Shown here piece after piece: positions 8,633 to 29,138 of a stretch of 32,637 nt of DNA. Where the stretch lies: positions 1 to 32,637 of the forward strand of contig PMYN01000023.1 in NCBI GenBank assembly GCA_003171215.1. Direction: 5' to 3'. The DNA comes from Gemmatimonadota bacterium. Lineage in GTDB: Bacteria > Gemmatimonadota > Gemmatimonadetes > Gemmatimonadales > Gemmatimonadaceae. Within the stretch, counting starts at the first letter, position 1. Every line of letters begins with the position of its first letter. The notes beneath the pieces were generated by a model that was not told the origin of the DNA, made no database searches, and saw only the letters and a program-made list of their open reading frames with translations. Made by a program: the position numbers and the translations under genes.

Positions 8633-8684
8633 AGGCCATCTCGCAAACCCGGCGCTATTGAGTGGAAGAGTGGGGAGAGGCGAA

Positions 8685-8908
8685 ATGAATGCGGGATGCG
8701 GAATTTCGACCCGATGCGGGATACGCGGCTGGAGGGCGGGAATCGGGAAAGGGCTGATGCGGAATGCGAGAGGGATGCCGAATACGGATGCCGCCCGGGT
8801 CGTGCCCGCATCGCGGGTCCCTTCCGCATCTTGCATCCTGCCTTTCCCGATTCCCGCCCTCCAACCCCGCATCCTGCATCGGAGCAAACTTCCGCATCCC
8901 GCATCCAT
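8685..8908. repeat. Long imperfect inverted repeat built of about 7-nt units, between convergent genes
   Basis: This fills most of the 332-nt gap between the converging permease and Nramp genes. The outer arms ATGAATGCGGGATGCGGA (8685-8702) and its near complement (8891-8908, one mismatch) frame a perfect 22-bp match, 8731-8752 with 8841-8862. The left arm is a run of degenerate units such as GCGGGAT, GCGGAAT, GATGCGG and GATACGC. The transcript could form a hairpin of about 100 bp and terminate transcription from both sides. No gene is seen in this gap. Confidence 0.85.
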
Positions 8909-8964
8909 CTCGCCCCTCTGCACTCCCTCACCACACCCTTCAGCATTGGTTTGTGAGACGTGCT

Positions 8965-10224
8965 CTAAACCACAAACATCGCGATCCCCGCCGCGAACAT
9001 CGCCACCGTCGTCGCGCCGACCACCACGCGCCCCAGCAACGAGCTCGGCTGGCCGTTCATCAGCTTGCGATCCGTCGCGGCGTGCAGGATGCCGATCAAC
9101 AGGAACGGCGCCAGCAGACCATTGATCACGGCGGTCCAGTAGAGCGCCTTCACCGCGCCGATTCCCGCGAAATCCATCGCCACACCGATCGCGATCGATA
9201 CGCCGATGACGGCGTAAAAGGCGTGCGCACGGCCGAACCGCTCGTCGATACCCTGCTTCCAATCGAACGTCTCGGCGAACGCATATGCGGCGGAACCGGC
9301 GAGAGTGGGAATGGCGAGCAGTCCGGTTCCAACGATTCCGATCGTATAGAGCAACATCGCTGATCGGCCGGCAAGCGGACGCAGCGCGGCGGCCACGTCC
9401 GCCGACGTCTCGAGGTGAGTCTGCCCATGGGCGTGCAGTGTGCTCGCCGTCGTCACGATGATGAAGAACATCGCGACGTTCGAGAAGAACGTACCCAACC
9501 CGATGTCGATCTTCCGGTCGCCGATTTGCGCGGCGGTCGCGCCCATCCGCGCCCTGAGTGTGAGCTGGCCGGCCGCTTTTTCCTCTTCGACTTCCTGCGA
9601 TGCCTGCCAGAAGAACAGGTATGGGCTGATCGTCGTTCCAAGAATCGCGACGAGCGTCGCCCAGCCCTCGCGGCTGTGCGGGAGCCGCGGCACGACGGTT
9701 GCGCGCAGCACGGCCCCCCAGTCGGGATGCACGTCGATGGCCGCTATCACATAGACGAGGAGAATCAGCGCCAGCCACTTGAGCGTATTGGCGATCACCG
9801 CGTACCGCAGCCGAATCGTCGCGACCGTGATCCCGATGCCGAACGCCAGCACCCAGACGAAGGCCCGCACACCGGTGAGCACGTGCGCCGCGTCCGCCAT
9901 GCCACCCAAGTCCGCGCCGACGTTGATCGTGTTGGCGATGAACAGCGCGCCGGCGGCCGTGGCGAGAAGCCATCGCGGATACTTCGTACGGAGCGCGCCG
10001 GTGAGCCCCTTTCCCGTGACCATCCCGATGCGCGCGCACATCGTCTGCACCGCCGCCATCAGCGGCCAGAGCAGCGGCGCGGTCCAGAGGAACTGCGTGC
10101 CGAACTGCGCGCCGGTGATGGAATACGTCGCGATCCCCGAAGGATCGTCGTCGGCGGCACCGGTGATGACGCCGGGGCCCAAGGCAGCCAGGACGCGACG
10201 GAGGGGGGACGGCTTGAGAACCAT
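8965..10224 (-). CDS. Nramp-family (SLC11-like) transporter with divergent metal-site motifs
   Basis: Inner-membrane protein of 419 aa with about 11 hydrophobic segments; N-terminal ALGPGVITGAADDDPSGIATYS is typical of Nramp homologs. In classical Mn/Fe importers the first unwound helix reads DPGN and helix 6 reads MPH. Here the matching stretches are DPSG (about 27-30) and GTTISPYLFFWQ (about 196-207). This places it in a divergent subgroup whose substrate cannot be inferred; Mg2+, another divalent ion or a non-metal solute are all possible. An EVEEEK stretch follows helix 6. It is transcribed alone, convergent to the ADOP pair and divergent from the gntR operon. The start at 10224 lacks an obvious Shine-Dalgarno but fits the family N-terminus. 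Confidence 0.85.
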   Translation of the reverse strand: MVLKPSPLRRVLAALGPGVITGAADDDPSGIATYSITGAQFGTQFLWTAPLLWPLMAAVQTMCARIGMVTGKGLTGALRTKYPRWLLATAAGALFIANTINVGADLGGMADAAHVLTGVRAFVWVLAFGIGITVATIRLRYAVIANTLKWLALILLVYVIAAIDVHPDWGAVLRATVVPRLPHSREGWATLVAILGTTISPYLFFWQASQEVEEEKAAGQLTLRARMGATAAQIGDRKIDIGLGTFFSNVAMFFIIVTTASTLHAHGQTHLETSADVAAALRPLAGRSAMLLYTIGIVGTGLLAIPTLAGSAAYAFAETFDWKQGIDERFGRAHAFYAVIGVSIAIGVAMDFAGIGAVKALYWTAVINGLLAPFLLIGILHAATDRKLMNGQPSSLLGRVVVGATTVAMFAAGIAMFVV

Positions 10225-10256
10225 GGAGCGGAGAGTAGCGCGTGGGAGGGTGTACG

Positions 10257-10396
10257 ACGAGTTAACTCGTTCTTGGTTGGTTGGTTAACCGAAGTTGAGT
10301 AATTCGCCCTGACATCGAGCCCCGCGACGCGCCTCGCAGTCCGGGCCAATTCTTTCACCTCAGTTAACCAACCAACTAGAAACCAGTTCACCCGCA
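10257..10396. repeat. Inverted repeat with GGTT-rich arms in a divergent intergenic region
   Basis: A perfect 14-bp palindrome ACGAGTTAACTCGT (10257-10270) leads into GTTGGTTGGTTAAC (10276-10289). Its exact complement is GTTAACCAACCAAC (10363-10376), and flanking bases pair imperfectly to about 10396. It is much richer in A/T than its surroundings. It lies between the starts of the Nramp gene and the gntR operon, so a terminator role is unlikely. It ends just before the gntR promoter. No gene is seen in 10225-10461. Confidence 0.75.
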
Positions 10397-10404
10397 GTTT
10401 CCTC

Positions 10405-10450
10405 TTGACTTTATCCTCCCACCTCATCACTGTATCGTGACACCGATACA
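10405..10450 (+). promoter_or_regulatory. Promoter/operator of the gntR-ABC operon; YtrA-type palindrome
   Basis: A -35-like TTGACT (10405-10410) and, 18 nt after TTGAC, CACTGTATCG-TGACA-CCGATACACCA. The palindrome TGTATCG-N6-CGATACA covers 10431-10450 and ends 11 nt before the gntR ATG. It matches the element at 3646-3691 at 21 of 26 positions across the CACTG...CACCA block, with equal spacing to TTGAC. Autoregulation by the first gene of the operon is the simplest reading. Confidence 0.78.
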
Positions 10451-10461
10451 CCAGGCGCCCA

Positions 10462-10842
10462 ATGTTCGAACGCATCGACCCCCGAAGTCCCACGCCCATC
10501 TACGCGCAGATCGCGGAGCGCGTGCGCGTGGCCGTCGCCGCCGGCGAACTCGCGAAGGGCGACAGCCTCCCCTCCGTGCGCGCGCTGGCGACCCGCTTGC
10601 GCGTGAACCCCGCGACCGTCGTGCAAGCCTATCGCGAGCTCGAACAGGAGAAACTCTTGGAAATGCGCCAGGGAGCGGGAACGTTCATCCTCGAAATGCC
10701 GGTGGAGTCGCGCGCCCGCGAGCGACAGGCCGCGGCGAAGCGGCTCGTCCGCGGTCTAATGGAAGAGGCCGCGCGGCTGGGCATCCAGAAGGACGACATC
10801 AAGAAGGCGCTCAACGGCGAACTCTACGAGGGCGGACGATGA
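10462..10842 (+). CDS. GntR-family repressor, YtrA subfamily
   Basis: Small regulator of 126 aa. Residues about 10-75 form the GntR winged helix (PIYAQIAERVRVAVAAGEL, then SLPSVRALATRLRVNPATVV and a wing at RQGAGTF). The C-terminal part is a short helical region of about 50 residues instead of a large ligand-binding domain, the hallmark of the YtrA subfamily. These usually sit first in an ABC transporter operon and repress it, as here. The likely binding site is the palindrome at 10431-10450, and by identity also 3672-3691. The stop overlaps the ATPase start (ATGA). Confidence 0.9.
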   Translation: MFERIDPRSPTPIYAQIAERVRVAVAAGELAKGDSLPSVRALATRLRVNPATVVQAYRELEQEKLLEMRQGAGTFILEMPVESRARERQAAAKRLVRGLMEEAARLGIQKDDIKKALNGELYEGGR

Positions 10843-11753
10843 GCGACGCCATCATTGTGCGAAACGTGACGTATCGCGCCGGCAAGGAGTTCGCGATCCG
10901 CGATCTCGCCATGACCGTGCCGACCGGATCCGTCTACGGATTTCTCGGACCGAACGGCTCCGGCAAGACGACCACGCTGCGCCTGCTGCTCGGCATGCTG
11001 CCCGTGGACGACGGCACCATCAACCTGCTCGGACACGATGTGCCCGCCGGCGTGCACAAGGCGCTCGCCAAGATCGGCTACGTGCCGGAGCGGCTGCATC
11101 TCTATCCGCAGCTCACCGTCGAGGAGACGCTGCGCTATCACGCGGCGTTCTACCCCGACTGGGACAACGCGCGTGCCGAGCAGCTGCGGCGCGGGTTTTC
11201 GCTGCGCGCCGAGCAGCATGTCGACCGTCTCTCGAAGGGCGAGAGCGGCAAGCTGATGATGCTGATCGCACTGGCGCACAATCCGGACTTGCTCGTGCTC
11301 GACGAGCCGACGGACGGTCTCGATCCGGTGGTGCGCCGTGACGTGCTCGCGGCCCTGCTCGAATACGTCTCGTCGCGAGGCGCGACGGTGCTCATCTCGA
11401 GTCACCTGATTCACGAGCAGGAGCGCATCTGCGACCACGTGGGCGTGATGGACGACGGGCGGCTGCTCGCCGAGATGCCGATGGCGGCGTTCCGCGGCGG
11501 CATCAAGCGGCTGCGCGTGTCCAGGGCCCCGCTGGATCGCGGCGACCTTCCCTTCACGCTTCTCTCGCGCGGCGTCTCCGCGGGGCGCGAGGAAGAGTGG
11601 GTGGTGCGCGGGTGGCAGCCTGCGATGAAGGAATACTTCGTGACGGCGGAGAGCGAGCTGCGCGAAGTGATCGATCTCGATCTCGAGGAGAGTTTCGTGG
11701 AGCTGCTGCGCTCGGCGCGTGTACCGGTCGTCGTTGCCGGGGAGGAGATCTGA
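10839..11753 (+). CDS. ABC transporter ATP-binding protein (YtrB/CcmA-like)
   Basis: Cytoplasmic ATPase of 304 aa that energises the next-encoded permease. Walker A GPNGSGKT is at 37-44. The signature motif is a variant, LSKGE at 131-135. Walker B LLVLDEP is at 151-157, followed by TDGLDP, and the switch His is at 189 in ISSHL. The C-terminal region after about 210 is an accessory domain seen in many drug- or lipid-export ATPases. The ATG at 10839 overlaps the gntR stop by 4 nt, and the stop overlaps the permease start (TGATG), so translation is coupled at both ends. Substrate is unknown. Confidence 0.92.
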   Translation: MSDAIIVRNVTYRAGKEFAIRDLAMTVPTGSVYGFLGPNGSGKTTTLRLLLGMLPVDDGTINLLGHDVPAGVHKALAKIGYVPERLHLYPQLTVEETLRYHAAFYPDWDNARAEQLRRGFSLRAEQHVDRLSKGESGKLMMLIALAHNPDLLVLDEPTDGLDPVVRRDVLAALLEYVSSRGATVLISSHLIHEQERICDHVGVMDDGRLLAEMPMAAFRGGIKRLRVSRAPLDRGDLPFTLLSRGVSAGREEEWVVRGWQPAMKEYFVTAESELREVIDLDLEESFVELLRSARVPVVVAGEEI

Positions 11754-12406
11754 TGTTCGGAGAAATGCTGTACACGCAATGGAAGTGGGCGCGCACCGAG
11801 CTGTTCCTGTACGTGCTCGCCGCATTCCTGATTCCGACGATCATGATTCGCATCGGGTTCTCGTATATCGATGCATATTCGATCCGGTCGGTACTCAATA
11901 TGGGAGCGTACGCGGGCATTTTCTTCTGCGCGCTCGCCATCGCCTGTGCGTTCGGGCTCGCCTGGCGGCCCTATATCAACGACGCGTCGCTCAAGCACGT
12001 CGGGCCGCTCTCGCTTCCGATCTCGTGGCCGAGATTCGTTCAGATGCGATTCCTGGCGGGAGTCGTGCTGCTGCTCGTGCCGACCGTCGCAGTCTGGATC
12101 GGCGGGGTGATCGCCACCGCATCGGCGCCCATTCCCCCGACGCTGCATACGTACCCGGGAGGGATCGCCATCCGCTTCTTTTTCGCGGCGTTGATCGCGT
12201 ACGCGGCGGGCTTTCTCCTGCAATACGCGGGCGGGAAGCACGCCGTGAGGATCGCGATCTTTCTCTTCCTTACCGTCGTCGGCGTCGAGCTCGCCGGCCA
12301 GTTGCTCGGATACGACAGCATCGTAGGAAGCACCTGGAACGCTCTCACGAGCTGGCCCGGTCCGTTCTCGATCTTCGGCGCGCGGTGGATGCTGATCGAT
12401 GTCTGA
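11753..12406 (+). CDS. ABC transporter permease, about six membrane segments
   Basis: Hydrophobic protein of 217 aa with about six segments, for example ELFLYVLAAFLIPTIMI, AYAGIFFCALAIACAFGLA, FLAGVVLLLVPTVAVWIGG and IAIFLFLTVVGVELAG. Size and position after an ATPase fit an ABC-2-like or YtrC-like half-transporter. No similarity to a named subfamily is obvious by eye. The ATG at 11753 overlaps the ATPase stop. The 3' end overlaps the next gene by 8 nt. It probably works with the ATPase as a dimeric complex. Confidence 0.82.
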   Translation: MFGEMLYTQWKWARTELFLYVLAAFLIPTIMIRIGFSYIDAYSIRSVLNMGAYAGIFFCALAIACAFGLAWRPYINDASLKHVGPLSLPISWPRFVQMRFLAGVVLLLVPTVAVWIGGVIATASAPIPPTLHTYPGGIAIRFFFAALIAYAAGFLLQYAGGKHAVRIAIFLFLTVVGVELAGQLLGYDSIVGSTWNALTSWPGPFSIFGARWMLIDV

Positions 12407-13544
12407 TCGCCTGAGTTCCCGGATGTTCGCACTCGGGTGCGTGGCCGTTTTGCTCGCGCTCGGTTCGACCGCCGCGCGCACGGCGGAGGCGCAATCCGCA
12501 TCGCAGATTGCGGGGCGCGTATTCTCGGCGATACACACCACCAAGGTCGTGAAGGATTCGATCGAGCTGTTCCACGCGAGTCACACTATCGACTTGCCGC
12601 CCGACTCCGCGACGGCGGGAGGGATCCGCCTGCGCTTCGACCGGAGCAATCTCGGCGCCGAGATGGAAGCGGCGATGAAAGCGGCGGCGGAGCGCGCCTG
12701 GATCGTCGCGGAATCGCAATTCGGGGAGGAGGCGCGAGCAACCGCGGGCTCGGAACCGATTCTCGTGAACCGGGTGCGGCGGCAGTTCGCGCCGCTCGTC
12801 TGGATCGAGTACCTGGAACTCCAGCTGCCCGAACGGAGTTCGCGCATCACGATGGTCCGCGTGCCGATGACCCAGCAGAAGCTCACGGACGCCGTGCTCG
12901 ACATCGCCGGGACTCTCGCGACGAGCCGCGTCCCGCACGACATGATCCGGTGGCTGGGCTTCTGGACGCCGACGCGTCCGATGAGCGAAGAGGAATGGCA
13001 GGATGCCTCCCTCGACCTCGCGACGTCGGTCTCGACGGTCACCAAGAGCTGCTACGCGGGCTCCCTGGAGGGCTGCGAATCGGCGCTGGGCCTGACCGAA
13101 GTGAAGGATCCGCTTCACGAGTGGTACTCGCCCGACGGCTGGCGCGTGCTCGTCAGCGAATGGAACCCGCCGAAAGCGGATTTCGAACTCGTCGCCGCGC
13201 ACGACGAGTGCGTCGTCAAGAAAGTGGCCGCCACCTGTGAACGGCTCGCCCGCACACGGGTGGTTCCGATTCCCCTCAACATGTCCACCCGCGCGACGCT
13301 GTACGCGCTCTCGATCGAACGCGGCGGCCCTGCCGCCTTCTCGAAGATCCTGCAGGGGACGGGAACGCCGCTGCAGATTCTCGCGAATGCTTCCGGCGCA
13401 TCGCCGAATGATCTCGTGAGCGCCTGGAGATCACGCGTGCTCCGCGCCGCGCCACGTTCGGACGCGGCGACGCCGGGCCATGTCGCGATCGTGCTGGCCT
13501 GGACGCTGTTGTTCGGCGTGGCTGCTTCGCGGAGGCGGCCGTGA
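12399..13544 (+). CDS. Exported protein of unknown function; degenerate gluzincin-like, C-terminal anchor
   Basis: 381 aa with a signal peptide (about 1-32, cleavage near AEAQS) and a C-terminal hydrophobic segment followed by SRRRP (about 360-381). The bulk should therefore be periplasmic and anchored at its C-terminus. No known domain is certain. Residues about 160-230 have the rhythm of a zinc-peptidase core: LDIAGTLATS sits where HExxH would be, then RWLGFW where WLxEG would be. The region 300-345 (AAFSKILQG...NASGASPNDLVSAW) resembles the C-terminal helices of M1/MA-clan peptidases. No zinc ligands remain, so a binding or structural role is more likely than catalysis. A C-x7-C motif (Cys218, Cys226) recurs in the next gene. 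It overlaps the permease gene by 8 nt. Confidence 0.75.
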   Translation: MSDRLSSRMFALGCVAVLLALGSTAARTAEAQSASQIAGRVFSAIHTTKVVKDSIELFHASHTIDLPPDSATAGGIRLRFDRSNLGAEMEAAMKAAAERAWIVAESQFGEEARATAGSEPILVNRVRRQFAPLVWIEYLELQLPERSSRITMVRVPMTQQKLTDAVLDIAGTLATSRVPHDMIRWLGFWTPTRPMSEEEWQDASLDLATSVSTVTKSCYAGSLEGCESALGLTEVKDPLHEWYSPDGWRVLVSEWNPPKADFELVAAHDECVVKKVAATCERLARTRVVPIPLNMSTRATLYALSIERGGPAAFSKILQGTGTPLQILANASGASPNDLVSAWRSRVLRAAPRSDAATPGHVAIVLAWTLLFGVAASRRRP

Positions 13545-14707
13545 AGATGACGTTCGGACGCTGGATCGCGGCGTGCGTGTTCGGAATCGCGCTCGTCGCG
13601 GTGACGTTGCTCCCACCCGGGCTCTCGGATGGAGACCCGTACTTCTTTTGGCGGCCGCCGTCGAGGAACACCGAGTTCGTGATGTCGAGACGCGCCCGGA
13701 TCAGGGCGCAGCACGGACAGAGTCTCTGGTACGCATATCAGTCCGCGCGCGACGTGGAGACCGCGATGAGAGTCTTCGGAGCCCAATCCGCCAAGAGCTC
13801 CGGGCCTCAGGATCCGGTCGTCTGGTTCGATTCGGACGTGCCGGCCTTGGCGCGCCTCCAAGTCAACAACGCCATCGCCGCCGAACGTGCCGCGCGCGGA
13901 GCGTGGCGCGGGCATGGAGCCGTCGGAGTCCTCGTGTTCACCGACACGGCGACGACTATAGGCGGCGTGCCGATGTCGTGGGGTACCTACGCGGGAAACA
14001 CAGTGATGACGCAGTTGATACCGCCGAGCAAGTCCACGGGTGATCGCTGCGTGACCGTGATCAAGCTTGGGCGCCATGCCGCACACGGCGAGGCGTTTCC
14101 AGACGGGCGCCTGCTCGACGGCTGCGCCTTCTACGACGCGTTCGGAGCGCCGGGTCCGGCCATAGCAGCATGGCTCGCGCAGGAGAACTTCCGCGTCGCG
14201 CGATCACTCTCGTTCGCGCCACCCGACATGGTGCGCAACCTGGTTCGGCCCACCGACTACGAGGCGATTTTCGACAACGCGAGCCTGGTGCGATGCGCCG
14301 GCGGCGATCTCGCCGCCTGTCCTTCCCTGATGCATCGAGATCAGTCAAGACCCATCTACTACTCCGACTGGTACGGCGGGCCGGATCGGAGCATTCCGCC
14401 CTCCGATGAATCATCGAGACGCTTCAATAGTCTGGGCGGGAGCTCGTACCTGGAGGCGCTCATGCGCGACCTTGGGCCGGGACGCTTCCAGCACATGTGG
14501 CAGTCGACGAAATCGCTCGAAGACGGCTATTTCGAAGCGACCGGTGAGCCGTTGGCCGCATGGCTGCATCGCCAAACGGTGATGTACGACGGCGCATACC
14601 ACATCGGCCCGCTCCCAACGCCGACCTCGGCGCTGCTGACGATGATCGCGGTGCTCGCGCTGGCGGCGGCTTCGGTGCGATGGGCGGTGCGGCCGTACGC
14701 TGCGTGA
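13541..14707 (+). CDS. Exported or membrane-anchored protein of unknown function, distant relative of the preceding gene
   Basis: 388 aa. An N-terminal hydrophobic segment (about 7-26) and a C-terminal one (about 363-383) suggest a mostly periplasmic protein anchored at both ends. The start is GTG at 13541, overlapping the upstream stop (GTGA) with GGAGG 5 nt upstream; ATG at 13547 is an alternative. Cys252-x7-Cys260 (CAGGDLAAC) matches CYAGSLEGC of the preceding protein. Residues about 301-345 (YLEALMRDLGPGRFQHMW...ATGEPLAAW) resemble the C-terminal helical part of M1/MA-clan peptidases, but no HExxH exists. It is last in the five-gene operon and is followed by an inverted repeat. Confidence 0.74.
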   Translation: MKMTFGRWIAACVFGIALVAVTLLPPGLSDGDPYFFWRPPSRNTEFVMSRRARIRAQHGQSLWYAYQSARDVETAMRVFGAQSAKSSGPQDPVVWFDSDVPALARLQVNNAIAAERAARGAWRGHGAVGVLVFTDTATTIGGVPMSWGTYAGNTVMTQLIPPSKSTGDRCVTVIKLGRHAAHGEAFPDGRLLDGCAFYDAFGAPGPAIAAWLAQENFRVARSLSFAPPDMVRNLVRPTDYEAIFDNASLVRCAGGDLAACPSLMHRDQSRPIYYSDWYGGPDRSIPPSDESSRRFNSLGGSSYLEALMRDLGPGRFQHMWQSTKSLEDGYFEATGEPLAAWLHRQTVMYDGAYHIGPLPTPTSALLTMIAVLALAAASVRWAVRPYAA

Positions 14708-14750
14708 AATCCAGCCGGGATTATCGAGTTGGAATGAGATAAGAGTGGCA

Positions 14751-14910
14751 AGATGGATGCGGGATACGGAATTTCGACCCGATGCAGAGTGCGGAAGAGG
14801 AATCCGGAAGGTGGGACAAGAGCAGCGTGGGGAGATCTCCCCTCTCACCCCTTATTTCCTCCACGCGCATTCCTCTTCCGCACCCTGCATCGGGCCGAAT
14901 CTCGCCACTC
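14751..14910. repeat. Long imperfect inverted repeat related to the one at 8685-8908
   Basis: The centre is the perfect 14-bp palindrome GGGGAGATCTCCCC (14829-14842). Farther out, 14778-14803 pairs with 14869-14894 at 25 of 26 positions. The left arm contains GGAATTTCGACCCGATGC (14768-14785), identical to 8700-8717, and runs in roughly 7-nt units (GCGGGAT, ACGGAAT, GATGCAG, AGTGCGG). It lies between the end of the ABC operon and the RND operon and could act as a terminator. No gene is seen in 14708-15040. Confidence 0.85.
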
Positions 14911-14955
14911 CCATCTGCCGTCCCCCGAGATTAGAGATTCATGACGTCTCCTGAC

Positions 14956-14978
14956 CGCTGAATTACCGTTCTTCAGCG
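14956..14978. promoter_or_regulatory. Operator-like inverted repeat upstream of the RND operon
   Basis: The exact 7-bp arms CGCTGAA and TTCAGCG are separated by 9 nt (TTACCGTTC). The element lies 62 nt before the GTG start of the adaptor gene. Size and place fit a binding site for a dimeric repressor, as is common for efflux operons, but no regulator gene is adjacent. A transcript hairpin is the alternative. Confidence 0.4.
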
Positions 14979-15040
14979 TTTGTTCGGCAGACGAATTCTC
15001 TCGCTGCGCCGCGGCAGCCACCAGTAATCGACGGGGAACA

Positions 15041-16162
15041 GTGATCTCGAACAGCTTCGTTCGCGCGCGGCGCGCTTCCGCGTGCGTCACCGCCACTTCG
15101 CTCCTGCTCTGCGCCGCCTGCGGTCGCGGAGCCACGACGCAGCGCGCGTTCCCGCCGGCCGACGTCGGCATCGTCACCGTAGAACCGCAGACGCTGCCGC
15201 AGTCCTACGATCTCGTCGGGCAGGTCGAGCCGTCGCGACGCACCGACGTTCGTGCTCGCGTCGAGGGCGTCATCCTCGAGCGGCCGTTCACCGAGGGCGC
15301 CGCGGTGAGTGCCGGCCAGGTGCTCTTCCGCCTCGATCGCGTCAAGACCGAAGCGGCGTACGCGAGCGCGCTCGCCCACTACAACAACGCCAAGAGCACG
15401 TTCGGCAGGCTCGAGCCGCTCCTCGCCAGGCACGCCGTCGCACAGCAGGACGTCGACAATTCGCGCGCGGAGCTCGACGCCGCGAAAGCCGCGCTCGACC
15501 AAGCGAAGAAAGACCTCGACGATTCCGTCGTGCGGGCAGAGGCCGCCGGAAGAGTCGGACGGGCCCGCCTCGAGATCGGCGCGCGCGTCACCGGCCCCGC
15601 CGACCTGCTCACCACGATCGATGAGCTCGATCCGGCGTACGTCGTCTTCCGGCCCTCCTCGCAGCAGGTGCTCGACTGGAAAGCGGACCCCCGCTCCGCT
15701 CCGCTCCTCGAGCCGGGCAGCAAACTCGAGGTGCGCGTGGTGCTCCCGAACGGCGCGCTCCTTCCGCGCGTCGGACGCCTGACTTTCGTATCGCCCTCCC
15801 TCGATTCCGCGACGGGCACACAGGAGTTTCGCGCGACGTTCGAGAATCACGACCGCATCCTGCTGCCGGGCCAGTTCGTGAACGTCCGTCTCTCGGGCTT
15901 CTCGCGCGCGAACGCGCTGGCCGTTCCCCAGCGTGCTATTCAAACGGGACTCGGCCGCATGTTCGTCTATGTCGTGAGCGCCGGCGACACCGTCGTCGCG
16001 CGCGACGTGAAGACCGGCCCCTGGAGCGGCACGCTCTGGATCGTCGATGACGGGCTCAAGCCGGGCGATCGCGTGATCGTCGACGGCGTGCAAAAGGTGG
16101 CGCCCGGACGCGTGGTGAAGCCGTCGGCGATCGCGACAGATTCGGCGGGGGCGCGTAAGTGA
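15041..16162 (+). CDS. RND efflux periplasmic adaptor (membrane fusion protein, AcrA/MexA-like)
   Basis: 373 aa. It links the inner-membrane pump to the outer-membrane channel. N-terminal signal with Cys27 in LLLCAACGRG as probable lipidation site; a Cys instead of Leu at -3 is unusual. Order of regions: a barrel-sandwich half (SYDLVGQVEPSRRTDVRARVEG, then AAVSAGQVLFRLD), a coiled-coil hairpin (about 105-170, TEAAYASALAHYNNAK...AKKDLDDSVV), the second lipoyl half, a beta-barrel and a membrane-proximal domain near the C-terminus. The start is GTG at 15041 after GGGGA at close spacing; no ATG fits the signal peptide. Its stop overlaps the pump start (GTGA). It is first of three genes in the operon. 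Confidence 0.92.
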   Translation: MISNSFVRARRASACVTATSLLLCAACGRGATTQRAFPPADVGIVTVEPQTLPQSYDLVGQVEPSRRTDVRARVEGVILERPFTEGAAVSAGQVLFRLDRVKTEAAYASALAHYNNAKSTFGRLEPLLARHAVAQQDVDNSRAELDAAKAALDQAKKDLDDSVVRAEAAGRVGRARLEIGARVTGPADLLTTIDELDPAYVVFRPSSQQVLDWKADPRSAPLLEPGSKLEVRVVLPNGALLPRVGRLTFVSPSLDSATGTQEFRATFENHDRILLPGQFVNVRLSGFSRANALAVPQRAIQTGLGRMFVYVVSAGDTVVARDVKTGPWSGTLWIVDDGLKPGDRVIVDGVQKVAPGRVVKPSAIATDSAGARK

Positions 16163-19100
16163 CCGAAGACCGAGGACCGAAGACCGAAACTTCGCCGGAA
16201 GCCGGAAGCCGGAAGCCGGAGGCACCCACCACCGCGGACGAGGCGAAGTACTTCTTCATCCGGCGCCCGGTCATGGCGTCGGTGATCTCGATCGTCATCG
16301 TCCTGCTCGGGTCGTTCGCGATCAGGCTCCTGCCCGTCGCGCGCTACCCGCAGATCACGCCGCCGGCGGTCAGCATCTCCGCGAACTACCCGGGCGCCTC
16401 GGCCGAGGACGCCGCGCAAGCCGTGGCCGCGCCGATCGAGCAACAGCTCGCCAGCCTGCAGGGGATGCTCTACTACTCGTCCACCAGCGCCAGCGACGGC
16501 ACGACCTCCATCACCGTGACGTTCGACGTCTCGCGCAACCAGGACCTGGCCGCCGTGGACGTGCAGAACGCGGTGAATCTCGCCGCGCCGCAGCTCCCGG
16601 CCGCGGTGCGCACCAACGGCATCACCGTCATCAAGGCGAACACCGACATCCTCGGCGTGGTCGCCCTCAAATCGACCGACCCGCGCTACGACGCGACGTA
16701 TCTCGCCAACTACATGAAGCTCTATGTGGTCGACGAGCTGAAGCGCGTCACCGGGATGGGCGACGCCACGCCGTTCCCGCTCCGGGACTTCTCGATGCTG
16801 CTCCAGCTCGATCCCGAGAAGATGGCGCAGCTCGGCGTCACGGTCGGCGACGTTTCCGCGGCGGTGCAGGAACAGAACGCGACGAATCCGGCGGGGCGGC
16901 TCGGGCGCGAGCCCTCGCCGCCGGGCACGCAGTTCACGCTGCCGATCACGACGCTTGGCCGGCTCGAGACCACCGACCAGTTCAGCGACATCATCGTGCG
17001 CGCGAGTCCGAACGGCGGGCTGGTGCGCGTCCGCGACATCGGGAAGGTGGTGCTCGGTGCGGTCAGCTACGACCTCGAGGGGCGGCTCAATGGCTCGCCG
17101 GCCGCGATGGCCCTGATGTACACCCGGCCCGCCGCGAACGCGCTCGCGGTGAAGCAGGCCGTCGTCGCGAGGATGAACGAACTGCAGAAGACGTTCCCGA
17201 AGGGGATCACGTGGGCGATCCCGTTCGACACGACGCCGTTCGTGACGGCGTCCATCAAGGAAGTGCTCATCACGCTGGCCGAGGCGATGCTGCTCGTGAC
17301 GGCGGTGGTGTTCCTGTTCCTCCAGAGCTGGCGCGCCACGCTCATCCCGATGCTCGCGGTGCCGGTGAGCGTGATCGGCACCTTCCTCGGGCTGTACGCG
17401 CTGGGCATGTCCATCAACGTGCTCACACTGTTCGGCCTCGTGCTGGCGATCGGCATCGTGGTGGACGACGCGATCGTCGTGATCGAGAACGTTGAGCGCA
17501 TCATGGCGCTCGAACAGATATCGGCGCGGCTCGCGGCCGACCGCGCCATCCGGCAGGTGGCGAGCGCGCTCGTGGCGATCGTGCTGGTGCTCTGCGCCGT
17601 GTTCGTGCCGGTGGCGTTCATCGGCGGCGTGAAGGGCGAGCTGTTCAAGCAGTTCGCCGTGACCATCGTGATCTCGGTGCTCCTCTCGGGAATGGTGGCG
17701 CTCACGCTCACGCCGGCGCTCTGCGGCATGCTGCTCAAGGAGTCCGTCGAGGCGAACACGACCGGCTTCTTCGGGTGGTTCAACCGCACGTTCGACCGCG
17801 CGCGGGGCCGCTACGTGCGCTCGGTGGACGGCGTGCTGCGCCGCCCGAGCGTGTGGTTCGCGGTGTTCCTCGTCGTCGTCGCGCTGGCCGGGCTGCTCTG
17901 GGTCCGCACGCCGACCGCCTTCATCCCCACCGAGGACAAGGGGTACATGGCGCTCTCCGTGCAGCTGCCCGACGCGGCGAGCCTGCAGCGCACGAAGGCG
18001 GTGGTCCAGCACGTCGAGGAGATCCTGCGCGCCGAACCCGCCGTGGTGAACATGGTGGTGCTCGTCGGGCTCGACATCCTCAGCGGGCGCGCGAGCGCGA
18101 CGAACGGCGCGACGATCTTCGTGAACCTCAAGGACTGGGGCGACAGGCCGGAGAAGGACGCGCTCGACGCGATCGCGGGACGCATCAACGCCAAGCTGTT
18201 CGCGATGCGCGACGCGAACGCGTTCGGGTTCAACCTGCCGGAAGTGCCGGGACTCGGCGCGACGGCCGGCGTCGAGATCAATCTCCAGAACCGCAGCGGG
18301 ATGGACATCCGCGAATTTGCGCAGCGCGTGCAGGAGTTCCGCCAGGGCGCGGCGCAGCTCCCCGCGTCGGCGGGACTCAACTCGAGTTTCCGCTCGAGCG
18401 TTCCGCAGGTCTACGTGACGGTCAATCGCGAGAGCGCCAAGGCGCACGGCGTGAACCTCGCCGATCTCTTCGGCACCATGCAGACGTTTCTCTCGGATCT
18501 CTACATCAACGACTTCAACCTGTTCGGCAAGACATACCGCGTGCAGGCGGAGGCGCAGCAGCAGTTCCGGCAACAGCCGTCGGACATCGGCCGGCTGTAC
18601 GTCCGCGGCAACGGCGGCGCGATGATCCCGCTCTCGGCGCTCACCACGCAGTCGTTCCGCAGCGCGCCGACCATCCTCCAGCGATTCAACGGCTTCACGT
18701 CGGCGCAGTTCACCGGCGCCCCCAAGCCGGGGCGCAGCACGGGCGAGCTGCTCGGCCAGGTCGAACAGATGGTGCAGACGCAGTTCGCCTCGGCGGGGAT
18801 CGGCGTGTCGTACTCGGGGCAGTCCTACCAGGAACGCGTGTCGAGCAGCGATGCGGCGCTGGTGTTCGTCCTCGGGCTGATCCTCGTGTTCCTCGTGCTC
18901 GCGGCGCAGTACGAGAGCTGGTCCGTGCCGTTCGCCGTGATCCTCGGCGTGCCGTTCGGCGTGCTCGGCGCGCTGCTCGGCATCTGGATCCGCGGCACGC
19001 CCAACGACGTGTACTTCCAGGTGGGGATGATCGCGGTGGTGGGGCTCGCGGCGAAGAACGCGATCCTGATCGTCGAGTTCGCGAACGAGCTGCACGGTAA

Positions 19101-19398
19101 CGGCATGCCGTTGCACGAGGCCGCGGTGGAAGCGGCGCGCGAGCGGCTTCGTCCCATCCTCATGACGTCGTTCGCGTTCATCCTCGGCGTGCTGCCGCTC
19201 ATGCTCGCGAGCGGCGCGGGCGCGGCGAGCCGCCACTCGATCGGCACGGGCGTGTTCGCCGGCATGCTCTTCGCGACGACCATCGGCATCTTCTTCATTC
19301 CGCTCTTCTTCCAGATCATTCGCGGAGCGGTGGATCGCCGCATCACGAAGAAGGCATCGGCGGCGCCGACGCCCGCGCTCGCGCCGGAGCGCACATGA
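16159..19398 (+). CDS. RND multidrug efflux pump, HAE1 type (AcrB/MexB-like)
   Basis: Proton-driven inner-membrane exporter of 1079 aa with twelve expected membrane helices. Family landmarks: FFIRRPV (32-38), the proton-relay aspartates in GIVVDDAIVVIENVERI (Asp436/437, matching AcrB 407/408) and the helix-10 Lys in AAKNAILIVEFA (about 966). The start is GTG at 16159, overlapping the adaptor stop. The protein has about 29 extra N-terminal residues (MTEDRGPKTETSPEAGSRK...) before the usual start, encoded by a heptanucleotide repeat tract (16161-16222). No other in-frame ATG, GTG or TTG lies between the tract and FFIRRPV, so the extension is probably translated. The stop overlaps the channel gene start. 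Substrates are likely hydrophobic or amphiphilic drugs; exact range unknown. Confidence 0.95.
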   Translation: MTEDRGPKTETSPEAGSRKPEAPTTADEAKYFFIRRPVMASVISIVIVLLGSFAIRLLPVARYPQITPPAVSISANYPGASAEDAAQAVAAPIEQQLASLQGMLYYSSTSASDGTTSITVTFDVSRNQDLAAVDVQNAVNLAAPQLPAAVRTNGITVIKANTDILGVVALKSTDPRYDATYLANYMKLYVVDELKRVTGMGDATPFPLRDFSMLLQLDPEKMAQLGVTVGDVSAAVQEQNATNPAGRLGREPSPPGTQFTLPITTLGRLETTDQFSDIIVRASPNGGLVRVRDIGKVVLGAVSYDLEGRLNGSPAAMALMYTRPAANALAVKQAVVARMNELQKTFPKGITWAIPFDTTPFVTASIKEVLITLAEAMLLVTAVVFLFLQSWRATLIPMLAVPVSVIGTFLGLYALGMSINVLTLFGLVLAIGIVVDDAIVVIENVERIMALEQISARLAADRAIRQVASALVAIVLVLCAVFVPVAFIGGVKGELFKQFAVTIVISVLLSGMVALTLTPALCGMLLKESVEANTTGFFGWFNRTFDRARGRYVRSVDGVLRRPSVWFAVFLVVVALAGLLWVRTPTAFIPTEDKGYMALSVQLPDAASLQRTKAVVQHVEEILRAEPAVVNMVVLVGLDILSGRASATNGATIFVNLKDWGDRPEKDALDAIAGRINAKLFAMRDANAFGFNLPEVPGLGATAGVEINLQNRSGMDIREFAQRVQEFRQGAAQLPASAGLNSSFRSSVPQVYVTVNRESAKAHGVNLADLFGTMQTFLSDLYINDFNLFGKTYRVQAEAQQQFRQQPSDIGRLYVRGNGGAMIPLSALTTQSFRSAPTILQRFNGFTSAQFTGAPKPGRSTGELLGQVEQMVQTQFASAGIGVSYSGQSYQERVSSSDAALVFVLGLILVFLVLAAQYESWSVPFAVILGVPFGVLGALLGIWIRGTPNDVYFQVGMIAVVGLAAKNAILIVEFANELHGNGMPLHEAAVEAARERLRPILMTSFAFILGVLPLMLASGAGAASRHSIGTGVFAGMLFATTIGIFFIPLFFQIIRGAVDRRITKKASAAPTPALAPERT
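16161..16222 (+). repeat. Heptanucleotide direct repeats within the RND pump 5' coding end
   Basis: Four units of GACCGAA/G (16161-16188), a 6-nt joint ACTTCG, then four units of CCGGAAG/CCGGAGG (16195-16222). The tract lies directly after the GTG start codon and encodes the N-terminal extension of the pump. Seven is not a multiple of three, so gain or loss of one unit would change the reading frame. Confidence 0.9.
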
Positions 19399-20873
19399 GC
19401 GGGCGTCGCGTCGGACAGCTGTTCTTCCCGTTCGCGCTCGCCGTGCTCACCTCGTGCGCGCAGGGACCGTCGTATCATGCCACGCCGGCGGTGGCACCGG
19501 ACGTGCAACTCAGGACGTCACGGGGCAGCGATTCGAACCGCGCGTTCTTCGACTCGCTCGCCAGGGCGCGATCACGCGACAGCCTGACACTGGCCAATCC
19601 GCCGGCGGCCGAGCGTGTGCTGCGCTACGACACGCTCGCGGGAGTCGCGTGGCTCGAGATCCTTCACGACACGACGCTCGAACGCCTCGTACGGATCGCG
19701 ATCGCGCAGAACCGCAGCGTTCAATCGGCCGTCGCACGAATTCGCGAGTATCGCGCCGAGGCGGCGAGCGCCCATACGCAGTACCTCCCGAACATCGCGA
19801 TCAACGGGAGCGAGAGCACGAACCAGGTCGCGTTCGGATCGAGCCTCGTGGGATATCGCGCGGCGCGGCTCACGGGCGACATGGCGTGGGAGCTCGATTT
19901 CTGGGGGAAGTTTCGCAGGGGGTACGAGGCGGCGAGCGCCGATGCGGCCTCGCAGGAAGCGGCCGAGCGCGCCGTGCTGCTTTCACTCGTCAGCGATGTC
20001 GCGACCGGATACCTCCAGCTGCTCGAGCTCGACCAGGAGCGCGCGATCGCCGAGCGTACGCTTGTCTCGCGGCGCGCGACGCTCGATCTCGCCAGGCAGC
20101 GCTTCGCGCAGGGCGTAATTTCGGAACTCGACGTGCGGCAGTTCGAGGCTCAGGTTGCGGCGCCCGCGGTCACGATCGCGCAGGTCGAGCGGCAGACGGC
20201 GCTCACGGAGCACAGCCTCAGCGTGCTGCTCGGCCAGTCGCCCGGAATGATCGAGCGCCGCGGCTCGCTCGCGGCCGCGGTGAGCGCGCTGCGCGTGCCC
20301 GACACGCTCAGTGCATCGCTGCTCGTCCACCGGCCCGACGTGCAGCAGGCGGAGCGTGCCTTCGCGGCGGCCACCGCGCGCATCGGCGCGACGATGGCGT
20401 CGAACCTGCCGGCGATTTCGGTCACGGGATCATACGGCAGCCAGAGCCAGGATCCGTCGTCGCTCTTTTCGCCGGGGACAACGGTGTACGCGCTCTCGGC
20501 GGGATTCTCGTTTCCGCTCTTGGCGTTCTCGCGCGGCGCGGATGAGACGGCGGCCGCGCGTGCGCGCGCCGACCAGGCAAGGGCGGCGTACGAGAACGCG
20601 GCGCTCAGCGCGCTGCGCGACGCGAGTGACGCGCTCGTGAGCGTGCGCACCTCACGCGACCAGATGGCCGCGCAGGCGACGCAGGCCGACGCGCTGCGCC
20701 ACGCGCTCGAGCTCGCCGAGCTGCGCTACTCGTCGGGAATCGCCAGTTATCTCGACGTGCTCGACGCGCAGCGAAATCTTTTCGCGGCGGAACTCGGGCT
20801 GAGCCAGGCGCAGCTTCAGCAGCTGACAGCGGCGGTGTCGCTCTACAAAGCTCTGGGGGGAAGCTGGCGCTGA
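19395..20873 (+). CDS. Outer-membrane efflux channel, TolC/NodT-type lipoprotein
   Basis: 492 aa. A lipoprotein signal ends in LTSC with Cys21 as lipid site. Two outer-membrane-efflux repeats follow, visible in helical stretches such as RIAIAQNRSVQSAVARIREYRAEAA and LELAELRYSSGIASYLDVLDAQR, and in GDMAWELDFWGKF, which is typical of NodT-type channels. It forms the trimeric exit duct for the upstream pump and adaptor. The ATG at 19395 overlaps the pump stop (ATGA), so the three genes form one coupled operon. The stop is followed within 7 nt by the inverted repeat 20880-21006. Confidence 0.93.
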   Translation: MSGRRVGQLFFPFALAVLTSCAQGPSYHATPAVAPDVQLRTSRGSDSNRAFFDSLARARSRDSLTLANPPAAERVLRYDTLAGVAWLEILHDTTLERLVRIAIAQNRSVQSAVARIREYRAEAASAHTQYLPNIAINGSESTNQVAFGSSLVGYRAARLTGDMAWELDFWGKFRRGYEAASADAASQEAAERAVLLSLVSDVATGYLQLLELDQERAIAERTLVSRRATLDLARQRFAQGVISELDVRQFEAQVAAPAVTIAQVERQTALTEHSLSVLLGQSPGMIERRGSLAAAVSALRVPDTLSASLLVHRPDVQQAERAFAAATARIGATMASNLPAISVTGSYGSQSQDPSSLFSPGTTVYALSAGFSFPLLAFSRGADETAAARARADQARAAYENAALSALRDASDALVSVRTSRDQMAAQATQADALRHALELAELRYSSGIASYLDVLDAQRNLFAAELGLSQAQLQQLTAAVSLYKALGGSWR

Positions 20874-20879
20874 TGCACT

Positions 20880-21006
20880 GGACGGCAGACGACAGACGGC
20901 GGACGGCGGCTGGGACGACAGAAGACAGACGGCGGATGGCACTGAACGAGCTGCCATCTGCCGTCTGACTTCCCAGCTGCCGTCCGCCCTCTGCCGTCTG
21001 CCGTCC
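20880..21006. repeat. Heptamer-built inverted repeat between convergent genes
   Basis: The left arm reads as successive 7-nt units GACGGCA, GACGACA, GACGGCG, GACGGCG, then GCTGG, GACGACA, GAAGACA, GACGGCG, GATGGCA. The right arm is the complement of a similar series (TGCCATC near the centre, then GCCGTCC at the end). GGACGGCAGAC at 20880-20890 pairs exactly with 20996-21006. The stem is about 60 bp with a small loop near 20943. It fills the gap between the efflux channel gene and the converging propeller gene and may terminate both. Confidence 0.88.
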
Positions 21007-21009
21007 GCG

Positions 21010-24000
21010 TTAAGGCACGAACGTCCTCGCCGGCGCCACGATCATCACGTGCGGCGTCCCCTTCAAGAGATCGTTGATCTTCATCACGTGATCCTGCATG
21101 ATCCCGTCGAAGCGCGCCTGCGCCTGATTGCCCTCGGTCGAGAGCTCGCCGGAGCGCAGCAGCTCTCCCGCCGTGGGCGGCATCATCGGGCGCGAGACCA
21201 TTCCCGATATCGTCTGCACCTCCTCGCGGAGACGCGGATACTGACGATAGCCAAGTCCGGGGAGCGGTCGCGCGAGCACGGAGTCCTTGAACTGCTTGAG
21301 CTGCGCGAGCGAGATGCCGACTTCGGCCAGCGCCTGCTGCGCGTTCGCGGATGAGCTATCACGCGGCGCGGCGCGCAGCGTGACCTGCAGCGCGGTCAGC
21401 TGACGCGTGACGTCATCGACCGAGTTCACGATGCGATTCACCCGCGACGTGAGATCCTGCATCGCCAATGCAGCGGTGTATTGCGCGGCCTGCTGCGCCA
21501 GCGTCATGTCGGAGCGCGGATCGAGCGAGACGTCCACCGTTTTCGTGTAGCGCTTCCCTTCCACCACGAGCGTGACGGTGTACGTGCCCGGAAGCGCGAG
21601 GATCCCGCCGGCTCCGCCGAATCCACCACCGCCGCCGCGCCCGCCCTGCGGAGGTGCTTCGTCCGCCGCCGCGGCGCGACGCTGAGCGCGGAAAGCCGCG
21701 AGCGCGGAATCAGGAGCGGCAGCCGCGGCCGCGGCCCCTGCGGCAACCGCTGCCGCCGACGTGTCGATGCCTGCCCCGCCAGCGCGTCCGCCCCGCCCGC
21801 CGCCGGCGCCACCCCGGCCGCCCGCGTCGGCCGGCGGATCGTACTGGAAGTTCCACGCGATGCGGTTGATGCCGGGCTCGTCGAGCACGCGCGTGAGCCG
21901 GCGGACCGTGCGTCCGTCCTTGTCGGTGATGGTGACGTTCACCGCGCGGGGCGGCTGCGACTTCAGATAGTAGGTGATCAGCGCGCCCTCGGGCGGGTTC
22001 GCTCCCGCCCACTGCTTCTGTCCGTTGTTGCCGTCCTTGTTCCACATGTTCCATCTGACCGCAGGTCGTATATCAAACAAGACGGCCTCCTCACCCCTCG
22101 CCGCCGCCAGCTGCTGGAGCGCCGTGATGTCGTCGAGGATGTACAGGCCGCGGCCGTGGGTCGCGAGCAGCAAGTCGTTGTCGCGCGGATGCACCTGGAT
22201 GTCGCGGACCGGAACGATCGGGAGATCGCCGCGCAGCGAGGTCCAGTGAGCGCCGCGGTCCCACGACGCGTACACGCCCATCTCGGTGCCGATGTAGAGC
22301 AGGTTCTTGTTTCTGGGATCTTCGCGGACGACATGCACCCACGCGGCCTTCACCGGCAGGTCGCCGATCACCGACTTCCACGTCTTGCCGTAATCGGTCG
22401 TCACGTACGCGTACGGCGAGTAGTCGTCGTCCTGATGGTGATCGGCGGCGACCCACGCGGTTCCCGCGTCGGAATGCGACGCATCGACCGTCGGGATCCA
22501 CGCATTCGGCTTCAGCCCCGGCACGTTCTTGAACACGTTCGACCACGTTTTCCCGCCGTCGCGCGTGACCTGCACGTTGCCGTCGTCGGTGCCGACCCAG
22601 ATCACGTTCGAGTCGAGCGGCGACGGCGCGATCGAGATGATCGTGCAATGGAACTCGGCGGCCGTGTTGTCGACCACGATCGGCCCCCCGGAGTCACCCA
22701 ACTTCGCGGGATCGTTCGTCGAGAGATCCGGCGAGATCACCTCCCAGCTCATGCCGTGATTCTTCGACTTGAAGAGCACGTTGCCGCCGAAGTAGACCAC
22801 GGCCGGATTCTGCGGCGAGAGCGCGATGGGCGAATTCCAATTGAAGCGATACTTGTGGTTCGCCATCTTGTCGCCCACCGAGCCCACACGATTGGGATAC
22901 GGATAAATGGTCTTCTGCGTGCCCGTGCGCGTGTCGGTGATGTTGAGCATCCCGCCCTGCGCGTCGGAGTAGATCATCCACGGCTGCGCGATGTCCGGCA
23001 CGGTGAAGAACCCGTCGCCGCCGGAGACGGTGAACCAGTCCGACTTGTGGATCGCGCCGGTGAGGCTCAGGCTCGTGCCGCACCAGTTGCCGTTGTCCTG
23101 CAGTCCGCCGCACACCGCGTACGGCTTCTGCATGTCGTAGTTGATATGGTAGAACTGCGTGAACGCGAAGGTGTTCACCACCTCGAAGGTCTTGCCGCCG
23201 TCGAAGCTGAGCTGCCAGCCGCCGTCGGAGCCGCTCAGGATGCGCTTGGGGTTCAGCGGGTCTATCCAAAGGGCTTGATGGTCACCGTGTACCGCAGCGC
23301 CAATTGTACGGAAGTTCTGGCCGCCGTCCTCCGATTCGTACAGTGAACCCGAAAGCGCGAACACGCGGTTCTCGTTGGCCGGATCGACGCGAATGTCGGC
23401 GTAGTAGAACGGACGGAAGTTGATGTTCGGATCGCGATTCACGGTTCGCCAGTGCGCGCCGGCGTCGTCACTGCGCCAGAGTTCGCCCTCGGTCTTCGTC
23501 TCGCTGATCACGTACACGACATTCGGCTCGTTCGTCGCGACCGCGATGCCGATGCGATCCATTTCGGTCTTGGGCAGCCCATTCTCGCGGTCCTTCCCGG
23601 AAAGCCGGTCCCAGGTCTCGCCCCCGTTCGTCGATTTGAACACGGCCGTATTCCCGCCGCCCGACTCGAGGTGCCACGCCCATCGGCGATACGTGTACAT
23701 GCCGGCGTAGACGATGTTCGAGTTGGTCGGATCGGTCGCGATATCGGAGCAGGCCGTCTGCGGATCGATGTAGAGCACCTTCTTCCAGTTCTTTCCGCCG
23801 TCCGCGGTCTTGAACACGCCGCGTTCCTCGTTGGGCCCCCACTCGCGGCCGAGTCCGCAGGCGTAGACGAGGTCCGGATTCCTCGCGTCGATGACGATGC
23901 GCGCGATCTTGTCGGAGTTCACGAGCCCGATGTGCGTCCAGTGCTCGCCGGCGTCCACCGATTTGTACATGCCGTCGCCGACCGAGGCGTTGTTGCGCGG

Positions 24001-24450: not shown

Positions 24451-24579
24451 GACGCGATCCTGACGGGGGGGGAAAGGATGTTCGTCGTTGAAGCTGATCC
24501 GGGACGAAGCCGCTCGCAATGATCGCGGCCGACGGGTGGTAACCGGTGGTGACGCGCGGGCACATGGAGAGGTACTTGG

Positions 24580-24608
24580 ATTATGACCGGTCCAGCAAAG
24601 CGCCGTAA
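24580..24608 (-). promoter_or_regulatory. Possible promoter of the propeller gene
   Basis: On the minus strand, TTACGG (24608-24603), a 17-nt spacer and CATAAT (24585-24580) form a sigma70-like pair about 130 nt before the start at 24450. The -35 match is only moderate. Confidence 0.4.
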
Positions 24609-24658
24609 CGCATTTCAGCATCGGGACCATGATGCGGAAACGTCGTTCCAGCCAACCC

Positions 24659-29104: not shown

Positions 29105-29138
29105 CGACGGGCGCAGGAGATCTCTCCTGCGCCCGTCG
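29105..29138 (+). terminator. Hairpin terminator after the SusC/SusD pair
   Basis: CGACGGGCGCAGGAGA (29105-29120) and TCTCCTGCGCCCGTCG (29123-29138) are perfect complements, giving a very stable stem 22 nt after the SusD-like stop. The following T-stretch is short (TCGTTTCGG), so termination may be only partly intrinsic. Confidence 0.7.

Follow-up and report, generated by a model that had tools for sequence, protein, structure and literature searches.

G-rich heptameric repeats are known in Xanthomonas, where the word is GGGAATC, and in Nostoc, where it is GGGGA(C/T)T; the accessible part of that account gives 70 and 75 cases of Xanthomonas heptads paired in convergent orientation (PMC4692102), which we read as inverted pairs with the G-rich arm first. 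Here we describe long, imperfect intergenic palindromes with arms of tandem 7-nt words in a soil bacterium of the Gemmatimonadota, family Gemmatimonadaceae (assembly GCA_003171215.1; genome G000, or the own genome, 4,138,602 bases in 162 contigs). The window analyzed is the whole of contig PMYN01000023.1 (C152), 32,637 nucleotides. The reading we favor, and hold to be rather probable, is that the palindromes belong to several coexisting families of non-autonomous, dispersed repeats whose words turn over in place.

The nearest known relatives are the Xanthomonas heptads, followed by the repetitive extragenic palindromes and their hairpin-forming doublets (REPs and REPINs) and by miniature inverted-repeat transposable elements (MITEs), which the element at the first palindrome of the window resembles in part. 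Like the Xanthomonas repeats, as far as the available text describes them, ours have a 7-nt unit with a G run, are intergenic and genome-wide with many at gene ends, form inverted pairs with the G-rich arm first, and for the most part recur at the same genes in sister genomes, though their lengths vary (PMC4692102). They differ from the Xanthomonas and Nostoc heptads in having several word types per genome rather than one and mostly GG rather than GGG per unit, and the accessible part of that source does not mention orthologous sites with differing words. The initial annotation of this stretch had stated that heptamers are known as direct repeats, which is incomplete in view of the inverted Xanthomonas pairs. 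Other described heptamers are more distant in form. Geobacter metallireducens has 49 elements of one family, with four GGACCGG heptads, that are likewise dispersed within and between genes, but the available portion presents them as tandem direct repeats and does not state a palindromic form (PMC2700814). The TAACTGA arrays of Beggiatoaceae share the scattered phylogenetic distribution, but in what is accessible of the report they are direct and lie upstream of start codons, with a single inverted case (PMC4679880). A literature search, mostly without subscription papers, found no description of these repeats in Gemmatimonadota. Relative to the accessible literature, the coexistence of several words in one genome and the word differences at orthologous sites are new.

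Four palindromes lie in the window:
8668–8925, no strand: gap 1, arms and center of a palindrome of word family F1 (GATGCGG), inside the larger gap-1 element listed below
14737–14916, no strand: gap 2, F1 palindrome with core 14773–14899 and outer arms 14737–14754 and 14899–14916
20880–21006, no strand: gap 3, F2 (GACGGCA) palindrome, seen by inverted-repeat scan, RNA fold and relatives elsewhere
10258–10394, no strand: fourth palindrome, GGTTGGT or F4-like, in a divergent gap that follows the start of the Nramp gene

The first three had been annotated initially as long imperfect hairpins with 7-nt periodicity, and they are. The arms of gap 1 are 108 nt long (8668–8775 and 8818–8925, 81% complementary), those of gap 2 34 nt (14773–14806 and 14866–14899, 91%) with the outer 18-nt arms in addition, and those of gap 3 54 nt (20880–20933 and 20953–21006, 85%). 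RNA fold z-scores are −13.2, −6.7 and −15.1, respectively, and none of 200 shuffles in each case was equally stable. Two of the three are between convergent genes, as had been noted: a MacB/FtsX permease gene and the Nramp gene flank gap 1, and an OEP and a Sortilin/BNR gene flank gap 3. The genes on either side of gap 2 are codirectional. The statement that units differ between these loci holds for gap 3 only; gaps 1 and 2 are one word family, both with GATGCGGGATRCGGAATTTCGACCCGATGC. The fourth palindrome and direct arrays at 16161–16220 had been overlooked.

That one design recurs with different units, also claimed initially, is supported for the genome at large. Inverted repeats occur in 107 of 493 intergenic regions in the 1.20 Mb sampled of 4.14 Mb; the contigs were picked from those listed, and own densities are possibly somewhat high. 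In the 0.82 Mb (314 intergenic regions) used for the lag-7 and first inverted-repeat statistics, intergenic DNA has a 6-mer identity rate of 79.6e-4 at lag 7, where coding DNA has 14.4e-4 and dinucleotide shuffles have 13.7e-4. The rate at lag 14 is likewise raised, and an inverted-repeat score of at least 25 is reached by 79 of 314 regions and by 0 of 314 shuffles. The search for periodicity that had been proposed turned up both the signal and further copies. We called genes and scored hairpins and arrays with scripts of our own.

Own intergenic arrays number 45 at period 7, none at periods 5, 8, 10 and 11, and 1, 3 and 5 at periods 6, 9 and 12. The sister genome G010, of the same genus and our main comparison partner (contigs picked via search matches, some matching palindrome ends, plus two others), has 15 at period 7, 2 at 11, 5 at 12 and 0 at the other periods tested. 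Leaving aside periods divisible by three, tandem arrays are essentially confined to period 7. Their density in the own genome is 28.2 per 100 kb intergenic as against 1.34 in coding DNA. GG is present in 42 of the 45 own arrays and GGG in 1 of 45; a run of three or four G per unit (G-quadruplex) is lacking.

The word families, defined by word lists of our own, are as follows:
F1: GATGCGG
F2: GACGGCA
F3: AACAAAGGG-type
F4: GGTCATT/GGTTGGT
F5: GACGGGT/GAGGGGC
F7: GCCGGAA
F8: GATGGAA

About seven families coexist, and those listed cover 79 of the 107 own inverted repeats and 33 of 49 in G010, the remainder being classed as other. The lag-7 signal falls to 57.5e-4 when regions with F1 or F2 words are removed (360 of 493 left) and to 20.3e-4 when six further words are removed too (316 left), so most of it is carried by a handful of words. 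Copies are dispersed, and each palindrome of the window has some elsewhere in the genome that are of full length or close to it. Relatives of gap 2 have 77–84% identity (at G000:C4, 83–84% over 144–149 bp), those of gap 3 at C33, C7, C4, C137 and C53 match at 74–82% over nearly the entire length, and copies of the fourth palindrome at C95 and C83 match at about 79%. Non-heptad sequence such as TTCGACCCGATGC is common to copies at different loci.

The arms obey a strict orientation. Of 60 clear heptad palindromes in the own genome, 56 lead with the G-rich arm (1 opposite, 3 neutral), as do 30 of 31 in G010 (1 opposite), and this order holds in nearly all word families; the non-heptad inverted repeats have a weaker bias (G-first 24 vs 8 of 47, own; 7 vs 2 of 18, G010). 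Among unpaired single arrays in codirectional gaps, neither strand is preferred (10 vs 10; 4 vs 5), so the G-first rule is a property of the palindrome and not of the gene. An explanation of it as a mere effect of sense-strand arrays at gene ends is thereby rejected.

These observations bear on whether the arrays are simple-sequence repeats, made by 7-nt polymerase slippage in tolerant DNA, with the palindromes being arrays that face each other by chance. The limitation of expansion to period 7 fits that explanation, as do the mixed words in one array (L304) and the over-representation of heptamers among bacterial repeats, for which, as the available parts of two reports relate, slippage has been proposed as a cause (PMC4692102, PMC4679880). 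However, slippage accounts poorly for a small dictionary recurring at many loci, for full-length copies that share non-heptad sequence, for palindromes that are G-first when single arrays are unbiased, and for an identical word difference at three independent sites (below). As the whole explanation we consider it improbable.

To follow the repeats between close relatives, we found 73 adjacent gene pairs shared by the own genome and G010 and retained 60, those whose intergenic DNA reaches 40 nt in either genome. The coding flanks are about 94% identical. Inverted repeats scoring at least 22 are present in both genomes at 10 regions, in the own genome only at 5, in G010 only at 2 and in neither at 43. 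Arrays have the same word at 11 regions and a different word at 3, and are G010-only at 4, own-only at 2 and absent at 40. At all three word differences (C152:20873, which is gap 3, C22:38632 and C83:22174), a GACGGCA-type word in the own genome stands opposite GATGGAA in G010; one site is the gap-3 palindrome, and two are direct arrays bounded by conserved sequence. At C137:17422, F2 in the own genome is matched by GCTGGAT in G010, but the own array is below threshold and hence is outside the three. The gap-2 palindrome (C152:14707) is absent at the orthologous G010 site, and a repeat at C127:5773 is in G010 only. Different words at the same spot in close relatives mean that the repeats turn over faster than the adjoining genes.

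Genome word counts, own to G010, are 99 to 14 for GACGGCA and 43 to 148 for GATGGAA. A reversed-pattern control is invalid for GACGGCA, which is identical when reversed and rotated. Since the outgroups G014 and G002 have GACGGCA (11 and 5) and no GATGGAA, the latter is probably the newer word. A bolder explanation of the same facts is that the genome has a system writing heptad words from a shared template, in which the array sites persist and their words are rewritten in trans; we regard this as a long shot. It is similarly doubtful that, under such a system, GATGGAA is sweeping GACGGCA sites, palindromes and direct arrays alike, and has gone further in G010 than in the own genome. If true, it would mean not ordinary transposition or local slippage but a repeat-writing activity, either a template-switching polymerase or a reverse transcriptase that uses a word template.

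The favored reading, dispersal of non-autonomous elements, is most concrete at gap 1, where the palindrome is part of a larger element:
8629–8968, no strand: gap-1 MITE-like element, 340 bp, CTAG/CTAA-ended, with the F1 palindrome within, recognized by terminal inverted repeat (TIR) matches and a second copy
8629–8649, + strand: left TIR CTAGAGGCCATCTCGCAAACC, 21 bp, from the TIR search
8948–8968, − strand: right TIR TTAGAGCACGTCTCACAAACC (minus strand), 21 bp, from the TIR search

The second copy, at G000:C26, is in the opposite orientation and 97.5% identical over 284 of the 340 bp, center included, its far edge being lost in an N gap; a further match is 93.6% identical over 218 bp. The TIR occurs 7 times in G000, 10 times in G010 and 3 times in G016, with no reversed-control matches in these three; there are no occurrences in G002, G014 and G009, nor in G005, where the control gave 2 matches. 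CTAG, a favored target of some insertion sequence (IS) families, is present at both ends of several copies. At C53:24420, a short CTAG-ended copy is present in G010 and none in the own genome, and the flanks differ by 4 nt between the filled and empty forms. The resemblance to bacterial MITEs is in the size of 340 bp, the 21-bp TIRs, the second copy with the same center and the CTAG ends; the difference is that the interior is a heptad palindrome. A non-autonomous mobile element had been among the roles suggested initially, and it is supported for gap 1 and likely for other families. The element's CTAG/CTAA ends contain the stop codons of both flanking genes (TAG, either strand; 8630–8632 and 8965–8967).

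An IS5-type transposase was considered as the mobilizer and set aside, as it exists only as a broken fragment at G000:C22:1044–1154 (L074, L289), with a TIR-like end about 1 kb away at C22:20; no intact transposase was recognized among the reading frames near that end. Facing TIR-like ends at G010:C212:976 and 1745 (770 bp apart) and G016:C38:127294–131381 (4.1 kb apart) are possible autonomous or composite elements.

Mobilization by a REP-associated tyrosine transposase (RAYT) would make these elements REPs or REPINs. They do resemble REPs, bacterial interspersed mosaic elements and REPINs in being inverted extragenic hairpin doublets, non-autonomous, in many copies with a variable center and in several families per genome (PMC3116915, PMC3733652, available portions). 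But the Y1 transposase profile PF01797 has 0 matches in the own genome, which is 98.76% complete, and the same profile matches 5 of 14 control genomes. Furthermore, the arms consist of tandem heptads, and the elements are much longer, the heptad palindromes having a median length of 127.5 nt (n = 60) where the accessible text gives 20–40 bp for REPs (PMC3733652). This makes a RAYT origin barely tenable; for the own genome it is in effect refuted, short of the gene lying in a missing stretch.

The position of the palindromes raises a different explanation, that they are functional bidirectional terminators or 3′-end mRNA stabilizers which took the place of intrinsic terminators in this lineage and are kept by selection on the hairpin. 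In the own genome, inverted repeats are in 43 of 73 convergent gaps but in only 12 of 99 divergent ones (Fisher p = 8e-11), and in 52 of 321 codirectional gaps; G010 has them in 21 of 38, 7 of 50 and 21 of 131, respectively. Heptad palindromes in codirectional gaps are mostly closer to the upstream stop: 22 of 30 in the own genome, 12 of 13 in G010 and 34 of 43 together. This 3′-end placement would fit a terminator, and in G006 and G008 an ordinary hairpin follows the orthologue of the gap-3 gene. Some palindromes contain a terminator-like core (C18:36741, C22:20449, L292, L307); that palindromes in general grew round such a core was rejected. No T-tailed terminator is found at gaps 1–3, in line with the initial annotation that these are not T-tract terminators, and 7 of 60 own heptad palindromes have a strict T-tailed hairpin compared with 7 of 60 shuffled, no excess (G010, 5 of 31 vs 2). 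A looser T-tail rule gives a modest excess in heptad convergent gaps of the own genome (8 of 22 vs 2.0 shuffled) and little in G010 (2 of 11 vs 0.8); convergent gaps of relatives stand at 10 of 24 vs 2.0. Against selection on the hairpin, the repeats are also in divergent gaps, and compensatory evolution of the arms is not supported. Of the arm pairs compared at orthologous sites with similarity of at least 0.55, 359 are unchanged, 18 are of G–U type, 26 are broken in one genome and 6 in both, and 3 show compensation; 24 were set aside for gaps. The arms look as if they are born matched and then decay, and for this reason we rank dispersal above selected termination, which we judge unlikely though credible. 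The terminator function that had been proposed is thus unproven: the 3′-end position and the looser scan speak for it, and the strict scan and the rare compensation against it. The comparison of orthologous gaps, also suggested at the outset, did not find the gaps conserved as ordinary terminators.

Returning to dispersal, we picture elements being copied into gaps where insertion would be harmless, at gene 3′ ends, with at least one family moved by a transposase in trans at CTAG sites. There, 7-nt slippage would alter the arrays, as would copies exchanging with or replacing one another, and in this manner a new word, GATGGAA, could come to occupy sites that had held an older one, GACGGCA. Transcripts arriving from either side may incidentally be ended or protected by the RNA hairpin, but the data do not show this role to be what is maintained. 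Several facts sit uneasily with this picture. Shared array sites mostly keep their word; palindrome centers vary between loci among F2 and F8 members, which is unusual for plain MITEs; by eye, most families besides the gap-1 element are without clear terminal repeats or duplications; and direct heptad arrays occur without any palindrome, also within genes. The shared CTAG ends are the only sign of target-site duplications, and no transposase is tied to the TIRs, PF01797 being absent from the own genome and its sole PF13340 match being the broken fragment.

The distribution among relatives is patchy. Five other genomes were sampled at 80 kb each. Four of these, the genus mates G006, G015, G003 and G009, have no 7-nt signal (2.1–3.3e-4) and mostly short ordinary hairpins, and G014 is intermediate at 14.5e-4. 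The own genome is 4.1 Mb and its genus mates are 2.2–3.6 Mb. GATGCGG-type matches, allowing 1 mismatch, are scattered through 46 of 149 relatives; counting G000 in, GACGGCA matches in 15, GATGGAA in 4 and GGTCATT in 4 of 149. Eight GATGCGG loci were drawn from as many further members of the order. Those at L102, L105, L107 and L108 are palindromes, G-first by eye and without the F1 tag, and L101, L103, L104 and L106 have no strong palindrome in the stretch examined. In a further set of relatives' arrays, some are palindromic and others direct only. Scanning with an 18-base F1 tag gave 41 stretches, of which five are from Gemmatimonadota (L152, L153, L169, L185, L186). The other 36, single exact matches in other taxa, were taken as chance, two having been inspected (L154, L159).

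Two direct arrays in the window are within a gene:
16161–16188, + strand: GACCGAA x4, within the N-terminus of the AcrB-like gene
16194–16220, + strand: GCCGGAA x4, within the N-terminus of the AcrB-like gene

These arrays are in frame, and the N-terminus of this AcrB-like efflux pump is longer than in G010, by a 75-nt in-frame difference counted by eye. Across gap 2, DNA identity to G010 changes from 73% on the left to 92% on the right, and the two adjacent proteins left of gap 2 (12399–13544 and 13541–14707) have no Pfam match at E 0.001. The Sortilin/BNR protein next to gap 3 (21010–24630) belongs to a very large paralogous family with 42 matches in the own genome. A short, near-perfect hairpin of ordinary size is in a codirectional gap at 29105–29138. 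An Rfam search of the window has no match except a partial tRNA on the minus strand at 1–47, at the contig edge.

An excess of 7-nt repeats in bacteria is a long-noted oddity, and this pair of genomes lets it be dated and dissected. Its several words, its palindromes with their strictly oriented arms and its orthologous sites that differ in word make slippage, transposition and templated copying testable against one another, and likewise whether the heptads end transcription between convergent genes.

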